Assembly (NCBI GenBank): GCA_016742275.1
Contig: JACVCD010000005.1
Location: forward strand, 186,001 to 250,000
Reading direction: 5' to 3'
DNA from: Gemmatimonadaceae bacterium
GTDB lineage: Bacteria; Gemmatimonadota; Gemmatimonadetes; Gemmatimonadales; Gemmatimonadaceae
DNA length: 64,000 nucleotides
Below the pieces are notes generated by a model. It was not told the DNA's origin. It ran no database searches and saw only the letters and a list, made by a program, of their open reading frames with translations. Positions 1,912-8,998 of this stretch are shown here, piece by piece (the first letter of the stretch is position 1; every line of letters starts with the position of its first letter). Both the position numbers and the translations under genes were made by a program.

Positions 1912-3015
1912 ATGCATTCCGTGCGTCGTTGCGCCCCAGCGGTTGCGATGCTGTCCATGGCGATCTGGAGCACGGCATGTGAACGCGCGGCATCGGTGCG
2001 ACCGGTTGTTGGAACGGCCGTGAGCTCAACGCTCAACGACGCCGTGCGCATGGCCTACGCCGACGACATCGAAGCCAACGGTTCTGCCATTGCCGATACC
2101 ATGTTGCTCGGTGAACCCAATGCGTTGGCTGCTACGGCAATCAGCTCGGCCAGTCAGTTGGTCGCACGTCCTGGTATGGTAGCAGTACTGGGACACACCA
2201 ATAGCGGCGCCAGTCTCGCGGCATCGCGACTCTACAACGAAGCGAAGATTGTCCAGTTGGCACCTACGTCGACGGCTGTATTGTACTCGGAAGCTGGTGC
2301 ATTCTCTTTTCGCCTTGTGCCGTCGGATGCAGAACAAGGACCGACGTTGGCATCCGCCATCTCGAAGGAATGGCCGGTCGGCGCGCGCGTCGCTGTGCTG
2401 TATGTAAATGACGACTACGGCCGCGGTCTACGCACCAGTTTCCGGCGCGCATTGGACACACTGCGCTATCCGATCGTGACGGATCTGCCGCATCTCGACG
2501 GACAGGATCGTGGTACATCCATTGGCGCAGACGTGGCACCGGTCATTGCCGCGCGACCTGACGTGATAGTTTGGATTGGTCGACCGACCACACTGCATTC
2601 CGTACTGCCCGCTATTCGTCGCGAACTTGGCAATGTGTTGGTGCTCAGTAGCGATGCCACCACCGCCTGGACCGTCAGCGGGAATGCGGACAGCGTGCTC
2701 ACTGGCGTGCAGTACGTCGACTATCTCGATCTCGATGCCACACCGGCCGCGCGCCCATTCGTGGAGCGCTACGCCACGCGGTTCGGGTACACGCCTGGAG
2801 CCGGTGAAGTACTGGCCTACGATGGCATGCGTCTGTTGCTGCGCGCCATCCGCGATGGTGCGCGCACCGGAGACGAAGTGCGGCTGTGGCTCGATCGTCT
2901 CGGCAAACAGGTACCCGCGTATCAGGGGATCTCCGGAGAGCTGTCGTTCTCGGAGACGGGTGATGTGCAGCGGCCGCTCGTGTTCAAGACCATCCCTGCA
3001 CCGACGACGCGATGA
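1912..3015 (+). CDS. ABC-type branched-chain amino acid-like periplasmic binding lipoprotein
   Basis: A 367-residue lipoprotein. The ATG at 1912 gives a compact lipoprotein signal ending in the lipobox Ser-Thr-Ala-Cys at residue 23; in-frame ATGs at 1891 and 1900 are alternatives. The body has the two-lobed type I periplasmic binding fold (Peripla_BP_6/leucine-binding family), seen in blocks such as MVAVLGHTNSGAS, VAVLYVNDDYGRG and EVLAYDGMRLLLRAI. Family members bind small amides or amino acids and normally feed an ABC transporter, but no permease or ATPase gene is present here. The stop overlaps the start of a hybrid histidine kinase by 4 bp (ATGA), so translation is coupled. The likely role is ligand sensing for that kinase. 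Confidence 0.85.
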   Translation: MHSVRRCAPAVAMLSMAIWSTACERAASVRPVVGTAVSSTLNDAVRMAYADDIEANGSAIADTMLLGEPNALAATAISSASQLVARPGMVAVLGHTNSGASLAASRLYNEAKIVQLAPTSTAVLYSEAGAFSFRLVPSDAEQGPTLASAISKEWPVGARVAVLYVNDDYGRGLRTSFRRALDTLRYPIVTDLPHLDGQDRGTSIGADVAPVIAARPDVIVWIGRPTTLHSVLPAIRRELGNVLVLSSDATTAWTVSGNADSVLTGVQYVDYLDLDATPAARPFVERYATRFGYTPGAGEVLAYDGMRLLLRAIRDGARTGDEVRLWLDRLGKQVPAYQGISGELSFSETGDVQRPLVFKTIPAPTTR

Positions 3016-5093
3016 CGGAGACCCCATCGGTGGAATCGCGTCCGCCGATCAAGCGATCGCTGCATCGTCGTCTCATTGCGGTGGGCTTTGCATCGGCCGT
3101 TACCACCGGACTGCTGCTCGGCGCCATTGCCGTATTCAATGCGCGAGAGCAACAGTCGCTTCGCCAAACAACGACTCGCGTACTCGAAGAACAGCGCATT
3201 GGTGACGCCGTCATACGTGGCGTGATGCGCCAGCTGTCGATTGCCGGAGAACAGACGCAACGCGGCACAGCCAGACAGATCAGTCAGTTCGATTCGACGG
3301 GGCAGGAAGTTTACGAGCATCTGCGCGGCTATCTCTCGCGTCCACTTTCGCCGGCGGAGCGACAGCAAATCGAGCTGGTGAAGGAGCAGCATCAGGGACT
3401 CGAGGTCGCCGCACGACGCCTCATGAATTCACCATCGTCGAGCAGCTCGTATTCCGCAGCCGCCAGCGACGACATGGTGCAGCATGCGTTCGAGCTGCTC
3501 GATGTGCTGCGCACATTTGTCAGCATGCGGGAAGCAGCGCTCGAATCGCTCGCCGACACCCAGGCAACGACTTTGCGCCGCGTCACACTGGCCGGCATGC
3601 TGTTTGTGGGAGTGTTTGCGCTCGTGCAGGCGCTGGTGTTGGCGCGATTTGTCCGTCGCCGGGTCACCTCACCGCTCGGTGAACTCAGTGATGCTGTGGC
3701 ACGAGTGGGCGCCGGTGATCTCGATGTACGACTTCCCGCAGCGCCCGATCACGAGTTCCATGGACTCGTGGAAACATTCAATGACATGTCGGCGCGCCTC
3801 ACCACGGCACGCGCCGACCTCGAAGCACGAAATGCCTCGCTTTCGGATGCGCTGGCGCAGGTACGCACCACGCAGGATGAGCTCGTGCGAAACGAAACGC
3901 TGTCGGCCATCGGTCGCATGACGGCAGGGCTCGCGCATGAACTCAACAACCCGTTGGCGACCGTGCTGGCATCGAGCGAGCTGTTGGCATCGCGTCTGCG
4001 GGATGGCACTCCACCCTCGACCGCGGAACTCGATCGCGACTACGCCGCGCCGATTCTGCACGAAGCACGTCGTGCGCGGCTGCTCGTGCGCAGCATGCTG
4101 CAGTTTGCCCGACGTGGCGATGCCGAAGTGCGTCCAGTGCCCTTCCGCGAATCACTCGACGTAGTGATGGAACTTCGGCAGTTTGCGTTCACAGCTGCCA
4201 GCGTGCGTCTCGAGGCTGGCAACGTGGTCGATGCCTGCATCATGGCGGAACCACAACACCTGCAGGGTGTGCTGCTCAATGTGCTGAACAACGCACTTGA
4301 TGCACTGGCCGGTCATGCCCGTGCGGATGGAGCGCCTCGCGTGGTACGCATCGATTCGCACCGCGACGAGCACTCGCTGGTGGTAACCATTACCGACAAC
4401 GGCCCCGGACTCTCAGATCCGGCGCGTGTGTTCGAAGCCTTCTACACAACCAAGGGCGTGGGTGAAGGAACAGGGCTCGGTCTTGCCCTTGTTGATCGGT
4501 TCATGACGTCATTTGGTGGTAGCGTGAGCGCGGGCAATGTCCCCGAAGGTGGTGCACGCTTCACACTCGTGTTCCGATTAGCCGAATCGCATCTGCTGCC
4601 ATCGCATGGATGTTCTGCGGTGGCACGCACGTCCGGCCCCCTACCGGCATTGGTCGACGACACCGGCTCGGAACCACAGACCACTCCGCGTGAAAGAGCG
4701 CACGCCCGCCCGCGCATTCTGGTGGTCGATGACGAAGAACCGCTCCTCCGGGCCCAGGAGCTGCTGCTAAGGCGTCTACAGGTGGATGTGGTTGTCTGCA
4801 GCAGCGTGTCCGCCGCCTTGGAGGTATTGAGCGTCCAGACGGTGGATGTGGTGCTGTGTGACGTGAAAATGCCCGGGGCCAGTGGCGTGGCGCTGTTCGA
4901 GTGGGTCGAACGTTCGATGCCGCCCCTCGTGGAACGCTTCGCCTTCGTGACCGGCGACGTGGACGCACCGGAGCTGGCGCGCTTTTCCCGTGAGCGGCCC
5001 AGCGCGCTGATCGCAAAACCGTTCGATGTGCGTGAGTATCTCGAACAGGTGCGACGTCTTTTGGCGGTCGCCACACCGTTGCGAGTCGAGTAG
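3012..5093 (+). CDS. Hybrid sensor histidine kinase with C-terminal receiver
   Basis: A 693-residue protein. Two membrane helices (about 20-44 and 190-212) bracket a roughly 145-residue periplasmic domain with no recognised family. A HAMP linker (about 213-265) and coiled coil follow, then a HisKA domain with phospho-acceptor His309 in LAHELNNPLA and a HATPase_c domain with the N-box NVLNNALDAL, DNGPGL and GTGLGLALV. The C-terminal receiver (about 568-688) has the acidic VVDDEE cluster, phospho-acceptor Asp617 in LCDVKMPG and the conserved Lys in AKPFD. Its start overlaps the stop of the binding-lipoprotein gene, so that lipoprotein may present ligand to the periplasmic domain. No output DNA-binding domain is present, so an unlinked phosphorelay partner is expected. 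Confidence 0.92.
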   Translation: MTETPSVESRPPIKRSLHRRLIAVGFASAVTTGLLLGAIAVFNAREQQSLRQTTTRVLEEQRIGDAVIRGVMRQLSIAGEQTQRGTARQISQFDSTGQEVYEHLRGYLSRPLSPAERQQIELVKEQHQGLEVAARRLMNSPSSSSSYSAAASDDMVQHAFELLDVLRTFVSMREAALESLADTQATTLRRVTLAGMLFVGVFALVQALVLARFVRRRVTSPLGELSDAVARVGAGDLDVRLPAAPDHEFHGLVETFNDMSARLTTARADLEARNASLSDALAQVRTTQDELVRNETLSAIGRMTAGLAHELNNPLATVLASSELLASRLRDGTPPSTAELDRDYAAPILHEARRARLLVRSMLQFARRGDAEVRPVPFRESLDVVMELRQFAFTAASVRLEAGNVVDACIMAEPQHLQGVLLNVLNNALDALAGHARADGAPRVVRIDSHRDEHSLVVTITDNGPGLSDPARVFEAFYTTKGVGEGTGLGLALVDRFMTSFGGSVSAGNVPEGGARFTLVFRLAESHLLPSHGCSAVARTSGPLPALVDDTGSEPQTTPRERAHARPRILVVDDEEPLLRAQELLLRRLQVDVVVCSSVSAALEVLSVQTVDVVLCDVKMPGASGVALFEWVERSMPPLVERFAFVTGDVDAPELARFSRERPSALIAKPFDVREYLEQVRRLLAVATPLRVE

Positions 5094-5154
5094 CCGCATC
5101 CTAACGTGGGGGGAAGGCACTGTTCCTCCCGCCGTTCCACGTCCGAGCGCCACC

Positions 5155-6330
5155 ATGCCTCGATCGCTGCGTTCCGTTTCCCGCGGTGCCCTGCTTTTCT
5201 GCGGCGCCCTCTCCGGCAGTGCCCTGCTCTCCTGCGCACCTGAGCCACCAGCCAGGTTGCGCATCGGTTTGCTCGGGGTATTCGACGGTCGTTTCGCCGA
5301 ATCGACCGGCATTCCGGCGGAAGTCGGCGCCAAGTTCGCGGTGGACGAAATCAATGCCGCCGGCGGTGTGATCATTCAGGGTGTTCCCCACACCATCGAG
5401 CTGATTTCGCGGCGCACCACGCTCCGTGCTGATGAAGCCGCAGCCAGCATGCGATCCCTCATCAATCGCGATTCGGTCGACGTGGTGATTGGACCGCAGT
5501 TCAGCAGCATCGCCGCGACGGCCGGTGCGGTGGCCGAGGAATCGGATGTACCTATGATTGCCCCGATGGCCTCGAGTCCGGCGGTAACCCGCGACCGAAA
5601 GCTCGTGTCGCGCCTGGCGTTTCTCGACGCAGTACAGGGCGAGGTGCTTGCCCGATTCACCCGTGACTCACTTGGCGCCACCCGCGCCGCTGCTCTATAC
5701 AACGCCGCCAGCGTGTACGGACAGGAGATTGTGTCGTTGTTCCGTCAGACCTTTGAGAGTGAAGGCGGAACGATGGTAGTCAGCGAGGCGTTTTCCGCTG
5801 AGGACAGCAGCACACATCGTGTGCATTTGCGGCGTATCGTGAACGCAAAGCCGGAAGTATTGCTGCTCCCCGATCTCGTCGCGCGCGACTCTCTCATGCT
5901 GCGGGACCTGGTGCAACTCGGCTTTCGTGGTCGAGTGCTCGGCACCGATTCGTGGGATGCCGTTGGCATGGCACGTCTTCCGGAGTTAGGTGGCACGATC
6001 ATCGTGGCCAACTGGGATCGACGCACGACGCGACCAGCCTCTCGTCGATTCGTCGATCTCTGGAACGCAGCCAGGGGCACCAAGGACACACCACGTGCCA
6101 CGGCTGTTGCCACGTTTGACGCAGTGCATTTGCTGGCGCTGGCCGCCACACGCTCGGGCACCAAGAGTGGTCGCGCGCTTTCTGATTCACTCAGACGCAT
6201 GGGTACCTACGAAGGCGCCCTCGCTACCTATCGATTTGAAGGCACCGGCGACCCACGACGCAGCGCCACACTGCTCGAAGTTCGTTCCGACTCCACGATT
6301 CTGCGCGCCGTGATCGCCCCCCGTCCGTGA
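5155..6330 (+). CDS. ABC-type branched-chain amino acid-like periplasmic binding lipoprotein (second copy)
   Basis: A 391-residue lipoprotein beginning at the ATG at 5155, which gives a basic n-region, a hydrophobic core and the lipobox Leu-Leu-Ser-Cys. The body is again Peripla_BP_6: IGLLGVFDGRFAESTG at the start of lobe 1, GAKFAVDEINAAGGV, DVVIGPQFSSIA (substrate-cleft serines) and VPMIAPMASSPAVT. It is closer to canonical leucine-binding proteins than the first copy. It lies 61 bp after the first kinase and 7 bp before the second, so the operon repeats a binding-protein/kinase unit. No ABC permease is nearby. I infer a receptor role for an amino acid-like ligand; nutrient scavenging through an unlinked transporter cannot be excluded. 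Confidence 0.88.
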   Translation: MPRSLRSVSRGALLFCGALSGSALLSCAPEPPARLRIGLLGVFDGRFAESTGIPAEVGAKFAVDEINAAGGVIIQGVPHTIELISRRTTLRADEAAASMRSLINRDSVDVVIGPQFSSIAATAGAVAEESDVPMIAPMASSPAVTRDRKLVSRLAFLDAVQGEVLARFTRDSLGATRAAALYNAASVYGQEIVSLFRQTFESEGGTMVVSEAFSAEDSSTHRVHLRRIVNAKPEVLLLPDLVARDSLMLRDLVQLGFRGRVLGTDSWDAVGMARLPELGGTIIVANWDRRTTRPASRRFVDLWNAARGTKDTPRATAVATFDAVHLLALAATRSGTKSGRALSDSLRRMGTYEGALATYRFEGTGDPRRSATLLEVRSDSTILRAVIAPRP

Positions 6331-6337
6331 TGCGCCC

Positions 6338-8998
6338 GTGATACTCAAGCAACTTTCCCGCAGCATTACCGCGCAGCTGTCAATCGCCGTCTTCGGGCTT
6401 GGTGTGGCCCTGGTAGTGGTGGGCGGTGGTCTGGCGTATCGCGCAGCGGAACGCACGCTGCGTGAACGCTTGCTCGCGCAGCTTGCCGGTCAAGCCAGTG
6501 ATGATGCGGGTCGATTGTCGGAGTGGTTGTCGCGTCAGCGCGAAGCTACGGTGCTGCTTGGACGGGAACTGGCGGTACATGGCGGCCCATCACCAACCAC
6601 GCCCGACAGCACGCAGTGGCAATTCCTGCCGCCGAGTGTTCTCGCGGCAGAAGAGATGCAGATCATCACGGTGCCGGGCGGACGCATCGTGCGCTCCACC
6701 AATCGCGCCACGCTTGGCATGTATGCGGTCAATGAGCAGTACTACCTGTCGGGCCGCGATTCGACATTCGTCAAGTCGATTTACTACTCGGGTGTCGGGC
6801 GCCCACGTCTCACAGTGGCCACACCCATCAGGCAAGATGGCAATACCCGCGGTGTGCTGGCGGTGCACCTCGATCTGACCCAGATGGAGCGCACGCTGCT
6901 GCGGCGCACCACAGCGTCCGAGGTTTTGGGCTCCGCCGCATTGGTGCGTATGCCGGTTGATGCGTATCTCGTCAACAGTCTGGCCGACTTTGTATCGGCT
7001 GCGCGCTTTGGACGTGAGGGCGTGCGACGTGGTGTGCACAGTATGGCCATCGACTCGGCGCTCGCGCATACCACCGGCACGGGTCAGTATGTCGACTACG
7101 CTGGTCGGCCCGTGGTTGGTGCATGGCGCTGGATCCCCGAACTCGATCTGGCACTCGTTCTCGAGACACCGCAGGACGCGGCCTTTGCGCCCGCACGCTC
7201 ACTACTGCTCCGCTCTCTGCTGCTTGGTCTCGGCGCCATTACGCTGCTCGCATTCGGTGTCGTAGCCATCGCCCGTCGCTTCACGCGCCCAGTGCTGGTC
7301 GTGGCCGACGCCGCGAAGTCTGTAGCCGCCGGCAACTTTGCGGTGCTCGCGCCTGAAGTTGGCGACGATGAAGTCGGTCAGCTCGCGCGTGCGTTCAATG
7401 TGATGACAGAACGCCTGCAGTCACTGTATACACGACTTGCCAGTCAGGTCGAAGCCACGCAGGCCGCACTGGAAAAGGCACAAAGCAGCCGGGAACTGCT
7501 GCAGGATCTGGTCAACAACACGGCTACCCTGGTCCTGGTAGTAGGGCTTGATGGCCGGGTGCGTCTGGCCAACGCCCGTGTCGCGGCATTGACGGGTATT
7601 CCTGAGGGCACTGCCGAAGGCCGTGATGTGTCATCGGTGCTTGGCGATACGGCCGCCGTCCTAAGCCCCATTCTTACGCGCGCGCGTCATAGCGAAGCGG
7701 TGATCGAGCAGGAAGTTGAACTCAACTCCCCTGCAGGCCCACATGGTTGGCAGGTCGTGGCATTTCCGCTGGTGCATACCGACGGTACCACGTATGCCAC
7801 CGGTCTCATTGGCACGGATCTCACCGAGCGTGCACGCGCCGAGTCGGAGCGCCGCGCCCGTGATGCCAGTGTGCAGCAAGCGCAGAAGCTTGAAAGCCTT
7901 GGTATCATGGCCGGCGGCATTGCCCACGATTTCAACAACATCCTGGGCGCCATCATCGGCAACGTGGAGTTGGCGCGTGACGCACTCGATGATGCCGAAG
8001 AAGCCGGCGCGGCACTCGATCGCATTGGCGCAGCCAGCAGACGTGCGGCGGAACTCACGCGACAGATGCTCGCGTATGCCGGCCGTGCCAGCCTGCGGCG
8101 CGAGACCATCGATCTCCGACAAGTGGTCGATGACATCGTGCCACTGGTGCGCGCAGCACAGGCCAAGAAGGTGCGCGTGCAGGTTGCTCCTATGCCCATA
8201 GCCCTATGGGTCGAGGCCGATCCTGCGCAGTTGTCACAGGTGCTGCTCAATCTGCTCACCAACGCCGCCGAAGCCATTGGCGATGTAAACGGCACCGTAT
8301 CACTCGGCGCTGTGTTAGGTACACCGCCGCATCATGAGCATGAAGCCGGCCAATGGATTCACATGACCGTGGAGGACACCGGTCCTGGAATCCCCGATGC
8401 CGTGCGTGCTCGCATTTTCGACCCGTTCTTTTCGACGAAGGAATCGGGTCGCGGTCTTGGCCTCAGCGCCGTGCGCGGCATCGTGCGGTCACTGGGCGGC
8501 ATTCTCGAACTCGTATCAGTCGTAGGAGATGGCACGCGCTTCGATATCTACCTGCGCGCCGCCACTGAGCCAGCGCCACGAGAAGCAAATCCGTCTCCCC
8601 AGACATCGCACAAAGCCTATGGTACCGTGCTGGTCGTAGACGATGAAGCGTCTATCCGTCATGTGGCGCATCGGGTACTCACCCGCCTCGGTCTCGATGT
8701 GCTGGAAGCCGAAGATGGTGAGACCGGCGTGGCGCGCTTCCAGGCGGCCTCACCAAACATTCGTGCGATTTTGCTGGACCTCACCATGCCCGGCATGGGA
8801 GGTCTTGAGGTGCTGGCGATCATCCGGCGATCACATCCGACGCTCCCGGTGATCATTGCCAGCGGATACGATCACGACGACGCACTGCGCGCCATTGGTG
8901 AAGATCCGGCCGTGCGCTTCCTGCAAAAGCCTTACTCGACCACACTGCTTCGCGAGACCATTCTTCGTTCACTGGGCGAAATGAAGCGCGAAACCTGA
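6338..8998 (+). CDS. Cache-HAMP-PAS hybrid sensor histidine kinase with receiver
   Basis: An 886-residue protein from a GTG start 7 bp after the binding-lipoprotein gene. Order of domains: helix 1 (about 12-35), a large extracytoplasmic region (about 40-280) resembling a double-Cache sensor (PGGRIVRSTN, LTVATPIRQ, GVLAVHLDL), helix 2 (about 290-312), HAMP (to 365), PAS (about 385-500), HisKA with His530 in GGIAHDFNNILG, HATPase_c (LLTNAAEAI, DTGPGIP, GRGLGLSAVRG), and a C-terminal receiver (LVVDDEAS, LLDLTMPG, LQKPYS). The first HATPase-proximal histidine motif belongs to the HAHDFNN group common in hybrid kinases. Cache domains bind small metabolites, so this kinase could sense ligand directly as well as through its neighbouring lipoprotein. 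Confidence 0.92.
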   Translation: MILKQLSRSITAQLSIAVFGLGVALVVVGGGLAYRAAERTLRERLLAQLAGQASDDAGRLSEWLSRQREATVLLGRELAVHGGPSPTTPDSTQWQFLPPSVLAAEEMQIITVPGGRIVRSTNRATLGMYAVNEQYYLSGRDSTFVKSIYYSGVGRPRLTVATPIRQDGNTRGVLAVHLDLTQMERTLLRRTTASEVLGSAALVRMPVDAYLVNSLADFVSAARFGREGVRRGVHSMAIDSALAHTTGTGQYVDYAGRPVVGAWRWIPELDLALVLETPQDAAFAPARSLLLRSLLLGLGAITLLAFGVVAIARRFTRPVLVVADAAKSVAAGNFAVLAPEVGDDEVGQLARAFNVMTERLQSLYTRLASQVEATQAALEKAQSSRELLQDLVNNTATLVLVVGLDGRVRLANARVAALTGIPEGTAEGRDVSSVLGDTAAVLSPILTRARHSEAVIEQEVELNSPAGPHGWQVVAFPLVHTDGTTYATGLIGTDLTERARAESERRARDASVQQAQKLESLGIMAGGIAHDFNNILGAIIGNVELARDALDDAEEAGAALDRIGAASRRAAELTRQMLAYAGRASLRRETIDLRQVVDDIVPLVRAAQAKKVRVQVAPMPIALWVEADPAQLSQVLLNLLTNAAEAIGDVNGTVSLGAVLGTPPHHEHEAGQWIHMTVEDTGPGIPDAVRARIFDPFFSTKESGRGLGLSAVRGIVRSLGGILELVSVVGDGTRFDIYLRAATEPAPREANPSPQTSHKAYGTVLVVDDEASIRHVAHRVLTRLGLDVLEAEDGETGVARFQAASPNIRAILLDLTMPGMGGLEVLAIIRRSHPTLPVIIASGYDHDDALRAIGEDPAVRFLQKPYSTTLLRETILRSLGEMKRET

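Follow-up and report, generated by a model that had tools for sequence, protein, structure and literature searches.

Gene order and domain content of the locus

Four consecutive genes, here called A, B, C and D, lie on the + strand of the window, the whole 64,000-nt stretch that was analysed (G000, contig C13, positions 186001-250000, from a genome of 4.57 Mb). The open reading frames and the Pfam matches agree with the preliminary description, which had placed here two binding lipoproteins, each followed by a hybrid kinase (Table 1). The tight spacing it described was also found: the TGA stop of A runs into the ATG of B (a 4-nt overlap, ATGA), and gaps of 61 and 7 nt separate B from C and C from D, respectively. 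Both binding proteins carry N-terminal lipoprotein signals. The lipobox of C reads LLSC and a lipobox is also found in the C orthologues, while A has a weak lipobox (STAC) in the window and LQAC, LMAC or ILAC in its orthologues. A is without the first ~50 positions of the Peripla_BP_6 profile. By inspection, the phospho-acceptor His and Asp motifs are present as expected in both kinases.

No ABC permease or ATPase gene adjoins A-D, as had been claimed, and the BPD_transp_2 permeases of the genome sit on other contigs (C4, C15 and C17). The LivHM and LivGF genes that share the operon in HAAT/Liv systems are missing here and at the orthologous loci, and no output regulator is encoded beside A-B or C-D. 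The divergent gene upstream of A (278-1771) encodes a product with a C-terminal glycogen-binding (AMPK1_CBM) domain.

Table 1. Features of the locus, other Peripla_BP_6 genes of the same genome, and loci where C adjoins a citrate symporter gene. Positions are those of the window unless a contig is named.
Feature	Position	Strand	Basis
Gene A, type I periplasmic-binding lipoprotein, Peripla_BP_6 (LivK-like)	1912-3015	+	Pfam, E 3.7e-24
Gene B, membrane hybrid histidine kinase, sensor-HAMP-HisKA-HATPase-REC	3012-5093	+	Pfam
B sensor region, predicted four-helix bundle between two transmembrane helices	3060-3650	+	AlphaFold2
B C-terminal receiver domain	4716-5051	+	Response_reg, E 1.1e-14
Gene C, type I periplasmic-binding lipoprotein, Peripla_BP_6 (LivK-like)	5155-6330	+	Pfam, E 1.1e-43
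Gene D, membrane hybrid histidine kinase, dCache sensor-HAMP-PAS-HisKA-HATPase-REC	6338-8998	+	Pfam; AlphaFold2 for sensor
D periplasmic sensor, predicted dCache (double PDC) fold	6467-7177	+	AlphaFold2, Foldseek, VIA-align, weak Pfam dCache_1
D C-terminal receiver domain	8627-8962	+	Response_reg, E 2.6e-20
Third Peripla_BP_6 gene of the genome (L082), kinase-coupled	contig C13, 158k
Fourth Peripla_BP_6 gene of the genome (L083), MCP-coupled	contig C15, ~235.7-235.8k
Fifth Peripla_BP_6 gene of the genome, ABC-linked, sugar-type	contig C4		weak match
C divergent from CitMHS gene in relatives	L077, L078, L079, L080, L081

Conservation of the pairs and partners of the family

Orthologues were sought in 60 related genomes, 61 with the window's own, and the pairing recurred there: A-B in five genomes, and C-D in most genomes with C as well as in six further named assemblies with differing flanking genes (L201, L202, L203, L204, L208 and L210). 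Clear orthologues of A occur in G001, G020, G022 and G025, and the B sensor was found in exactly the five A-bearing genomes and nowhere else among the 61, always with A adjacent. The order A-B-C-D is kept in G001, G022 and G025, and G020 has A-B without C-D. C orthologues are present in nine of the 60 relatives (G001, G004, G008, G015, G017, G021, G022, G025 and G028), and the D sensor was matched strongly only in C-bearing genomes, in all of these except G004 and G015. Where the sequence is contiguous D lies directly 3' of C; in G017 the pair is split across contigs C260 and C112. Thus each pair is found without the other in several genomes, and A-B and C-D are separable modules, in both of which a binding-protein gene is adjacent to and co-directional with the gene for a transmembrane kinase, in a conserved arrangement.

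No D sensor was found anywhere in G004 or G015, genomes that are 99% complete, although C is present, and L205 has C with no D adjoining. Since C is kept in these three, it may have a role without D. The C proteins form a well-supported clade (100/99) in which the three kinase-less members are nested, which is most simply read as loss of D; the C proteins of G004 and G015 group together, beside that of G028. In G004 and G015, no D lies between C and the neighbouring GDSL lipase gene. In the draft genomes G022 and G008 (L074, L081) C lies in two frames, which may reflect faulty assembly or disruption of the gene.

Across the 61 genomes, every Peripla_BP_6 gene above the Pfam cut-off (n=88) was classed by its flanking genes. 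A chemoreceptor gene lies directly 3' of 37 and a hybrid kinase gene directly 3' of 19 (20 counting the split pair of G017), so that one or the other follows in 56-57 of the 88. Five genes belong to ABC operons, one of them a true Liv set (G055) and the other four weak sugar-type matches; the remainder have no chemoreceptor, kinase or ABC partner or lie at a contig edge. When 76 binding proteins were placed in a tree and labelled by partner, the label changed eight times, against a mean of 33 when labels were shuffled, and none of 200 shuffles gave a number as low. The window's genome has five Peripla_BP_6 genes, three of which are followed by a kinase gene. With 79 HATPase matches among roughly 4,000 genes (an estimated gene number), a random next gene would be a kinase in ~2% of cases; judged from gene order, and given its conservation across genomes, the lipoprotein-kinase pairing is in excess of chance.

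The wider phylum was represented by best-scoring matches, a non-random sample. Among those from other genera of the family (n=29), 18 have an MCP partner, five a kinase, none a permease and six another neighbour, and those from other families of the order (n=9) comprise eight with an MCP and one with no partner, giving 26 MCP, five kinase and no permease partners among the 38 sampled from family and order outside the genus. The sample from other orders of the class (n=20) has ten ABC permease partners, three kinases downstream, one kinase upstream, one MCP and five without a partner, and the three genes sampled from another class have none. The ten ABC cases demonstrate that the method does detect permeases. 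Consistent co-occurrence with an ABC permease set in relatives, named beforehand as the observation that would speak against a receptor, was not seen; these lipoproteins go with kinases or chemoreceptors, and their conserved partners argue, on genomic grounds, for a receptor and not an uptake system.

The census brought up several further arrangements. The Peripla_BP_6 lipoprotein that is most frequent in the genus, present in the window's and 36 other genomes, has its gene immediately 5' of one for a chemoreceptor whose sensor is of the four-helix type; the two genes overlap in the window's genome (L083:8000-10932). At L152:368-7991 (G039:C108), frames resembling serine/threonine protein kinases flank a strong Peripla_BP_6 gene (E 6e-78), and a further gene of the family, at L103:3773-10511 (G032:C21), directly follows a large ABC-ATPase-matching frame, possibly a peptide exporter. 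A strong Peripla_BP_6 lipoprotein (E ~1e-59) that recurs in several genomes of the genus (L154, L155, L156 and L104, the last at a contig edge) has no kinase, chemoreceptor or ABC neighbour, and L106 and L175 each have two distinct lipoprotein genes of the family near each other with no receptor or transporter nearby. Three candidate natural fusions (L229, L245 and L262) were rejected as long out-of-frame open frames; the partners, two MCP and one kinase, are really neighbours.

Sensor folds, known systems and ligands

The sensors of D and B were modelled with AlphaFold2 from few aligned sequences (8 and 5, respectively), and in both kinases the models and HAMP matches indicate a predicted periplasmic sensor flanked by transmembrane helices. 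The D model (mean pLDDT 79.4) is a dCache domain with many Foldseek matches at ~1e-9, amino-acid chemoreceptor domains among the closest. The B model (mean pLDDT 81.5) is a single four-helix bundle of ~150 residues, which VIA-align superposes on the LytSN part of the XylFII-LytSN complex 5xsj (Z 14.2, rmsd 2.1, 120 aligned), in a tie with unrelated bundles; since these score equally well the match is not discriminating. Sequence searches gave no real match of either sensor to solved structures. Profile comparison of the B sensor with those of other kinase-coupled pairs gave nothing, and with those of binding-protein-coupled MCPs it gave a match at a probability of 76% (E 2.2e-5) that is weak, comes from very shallow alignments and carries no weight here.

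That binding proteins trigger kinases, chemoreceptors and other receptors is established (PMC9602780, PMC6321045), and kinases with the gene of the triggering binding protein beside their own are documented (PMC11113362, PMC6321045), an adjacency that is common (PMC11113362). A survey from 2022 counted only about ten characterised binding proteins that activate kinases (PMC9602780). A-B and C-D add to the binding-protein-coupled kinases already known, such as LuxPQ, TorTS and XylFII-LytS. The AI-2 system LuxP-LuxQ of Vibrio resembles C-D in combining a type I binding protein with a hybrid kinase whose periplasmic domain is a double PDC (dCache), and D is likewise a predicted dCache kinase encoded beside a binding protein; however, D scores only 82.9 bits on the NCBIfam LuxQ model (cut-off 1200), and C is a Peripla_BP_6 lipoprotein. 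A-B is closer in plan to the TMAO system TorT-TorS, where the kinase has a helical periplasmic domain, but B reaches 100.7 bits on the TorS model (cut-off 676.5), and the two stacked four-helix bundles of TorS (PMC8534201) contrast with the single one predicted for B. In the Clostridium xylose system XylFII-LytS a binding protein also sits on a four-helix kinase sensor; XylFII binds a sugar, however, and the tied fold match of B is no proof of kinship. The binding-protein genes adjacent to those for AgtS and AruS of Pseudomonas aeruginosa have been studied as possible kinase activators (PMC11113362), though PA0602 and AgtB belong to the SBP_bac_8 family and A and C to Peripla_BP_6. The extracellular receptor 5ere of Desulfohalobium retbaense unites a Peripla_BP_6-like part and a dCache domain: its residues 2-314 match A in a sequence search and residues 353-593 match the D sensor (Z 17.1, VIA-align), so that this single chain is a natural fusion of outer parts like those of the separate proteins C and D. 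Among titles and abstracts naming both terms, no description of coupling between Peripla_BP_6 proteins and histidine kinases was found, which is no proof of novelty.

In sequence searches the closest solved relatives of A are the amino-acid-binding proteins 3ip5/3ipc and 3td9, and those of C are 3td9 and 4gnr. The phmmer alignments of both place Ser/Thr and an invariant Asp at pocket positions that we take, from LivJ-type proteins in general, to bind the ligand's carboxyl and amino groups. Because of this placement, the most likely ligand of A and C would be an amino acid or a similar small organic acid.

Two probable receptors and the alternatives

The tight co-directional spacing, the conserved pairing, the partner census, the division of the tree by partner and the 5ere fusion suggest that A-B and C-D are probably two separate two-protein receptors, in which a lipoprotein docks on the kinase encoded beside it and ligand changes the activity of that kinase. 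The lipid-anchored LivK-like lipoprotein would bind a small extracytoplasmic ligand, presumably of the class favoured above, and in its loaded form would dock on the periplasmic domain of the adjoining kinase. Ligand-dependent closure may then alter kinase autophosphorylation through the HAMP domain, as in TorT-TorS, XylFII-LytS and LuxP-LuxQ, and the phosphoryl group would pass from His to Asp inside the hybrid kinase and on to an unlinked Hpt protein and response regulator that produce the output. The genes, their domains, the conserved pairing, the predicted sensor folds and the lack of transporter genes were observed, while docking, the class of ligand, the direction of the response and any output are inferred.

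HAAT/Liv transporters are the usual users of Peripla_BP_6 proteins and the window's genome does encode BPD_transp_2 permeases, so A and C might be uptake proteins that feed a distant ABC transporter, with the kinases as neighbours that sense other things. We find this very unlikely: no such permease lies near a strong Peripla_BP_6 gene, the set on contig C4 has its own weak sugar-type binding protein, and the conserved partner is a kinase in every A-B genome and most C genomes. The kinases could instead sense their ligands directly, through the dCache domain of D and the helical bundle of B, with the lipoproteins merely scavenging the ligand or tuning its level. Direct binding of small molecules is frequent in both folds, and the amino-acid chemoreceptor domains among the structures closest to D fit the idea; that the dCache domain of D could itself bind ligand counts against the two-protein receptor, as do the genomes that keep C without D and the lack of an output regulator beside either pair. 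We nevertheless consider direct sensing distinctly unlikely, as it leaves the strict adjacency of A and B and the 5' placement of the lipoprotein genes across clades unexplained, and LuxQ, with the same double-PDC fold, responds through LuxP without binding AI-2 itself (PMC8534201).

The origin and ligands of the pairs invite two other readings. An identical gene order and identical protein families, twice in succession, could mean that a tandem duplication made both pairs and that related ligands are sensed, in line with the repeated unit of the preliminary description. That part of the description did not hold, and we regard the duplication as hardly credible: A belongs with other kinase-coupled binding proteins, its clade nested in a group of eleven that are all kinase-partnered (99/94), C falls in its separate clade, the predicted sensor folds are unlike (a four-helix bundle in B, dCache in D), and each pair occurs without the other. 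As the clades of A and C are separate, A-B and C-D are not duplicates of each other. It also seems unlikely that C-D responds to a tricarboxylate such as citrate and regulates a citrate symporter, in the manner of BctC-BctE of Bordetella, where the binding protein, once loaded with citrate, activates its kinase and the citrate transporter is expressed more strongly (PMC9602780). C is indeed divergent from a CitMHS citrate:proton symporter gene (TIGR00784, E 5.6e-166) in G004, G008, G015, G017 and G028, but three genomes that keep C-D, namely the window's own, G001 and G022, lack the symporter, and G021 and G025 have it at another location; the link is thus confined to part of the C lineage, and BctC-BctE differs further in pairing a TctC family protein with a tripartite transporter. 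The conserved Asp and Ser at the LivJ-type pocket positions of C also suit an amino acid better.

Beyond the two receptors, we lean slightly towards the view that, in this organism's order, LivK-type (Peripla_BP_6) proteins have exchanged uptake for sensing, with ABC-linked use persisting mainly in other orders of the class. Under such a conversion, separate lipoprotein clades would serve chemoreceptors, hybrid kinases with helical sensors (A-B) and hybrid kinases with dCache sensors (C-D), and the operon in the window would stack members of two of these clades. The pairs are small, conserved and separable, and in relatives the same binding-protein family works with either kinases or chemoreceptors; the pairs therefore offer a natural series for how a binding protein switches its signalling partner. 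Going by their genomic partners, such binding proteins appear mostly to serve sensing and not nutrient uptake in this lineage, and for most of its Peripla_BP_6 genes the label 'branched-chain amino acid ABC transporter substrate-binding protein' probably misleads. That LivK-type proteins serve across the lineage as components of receptors would be a more interesting aspect than the single locus.
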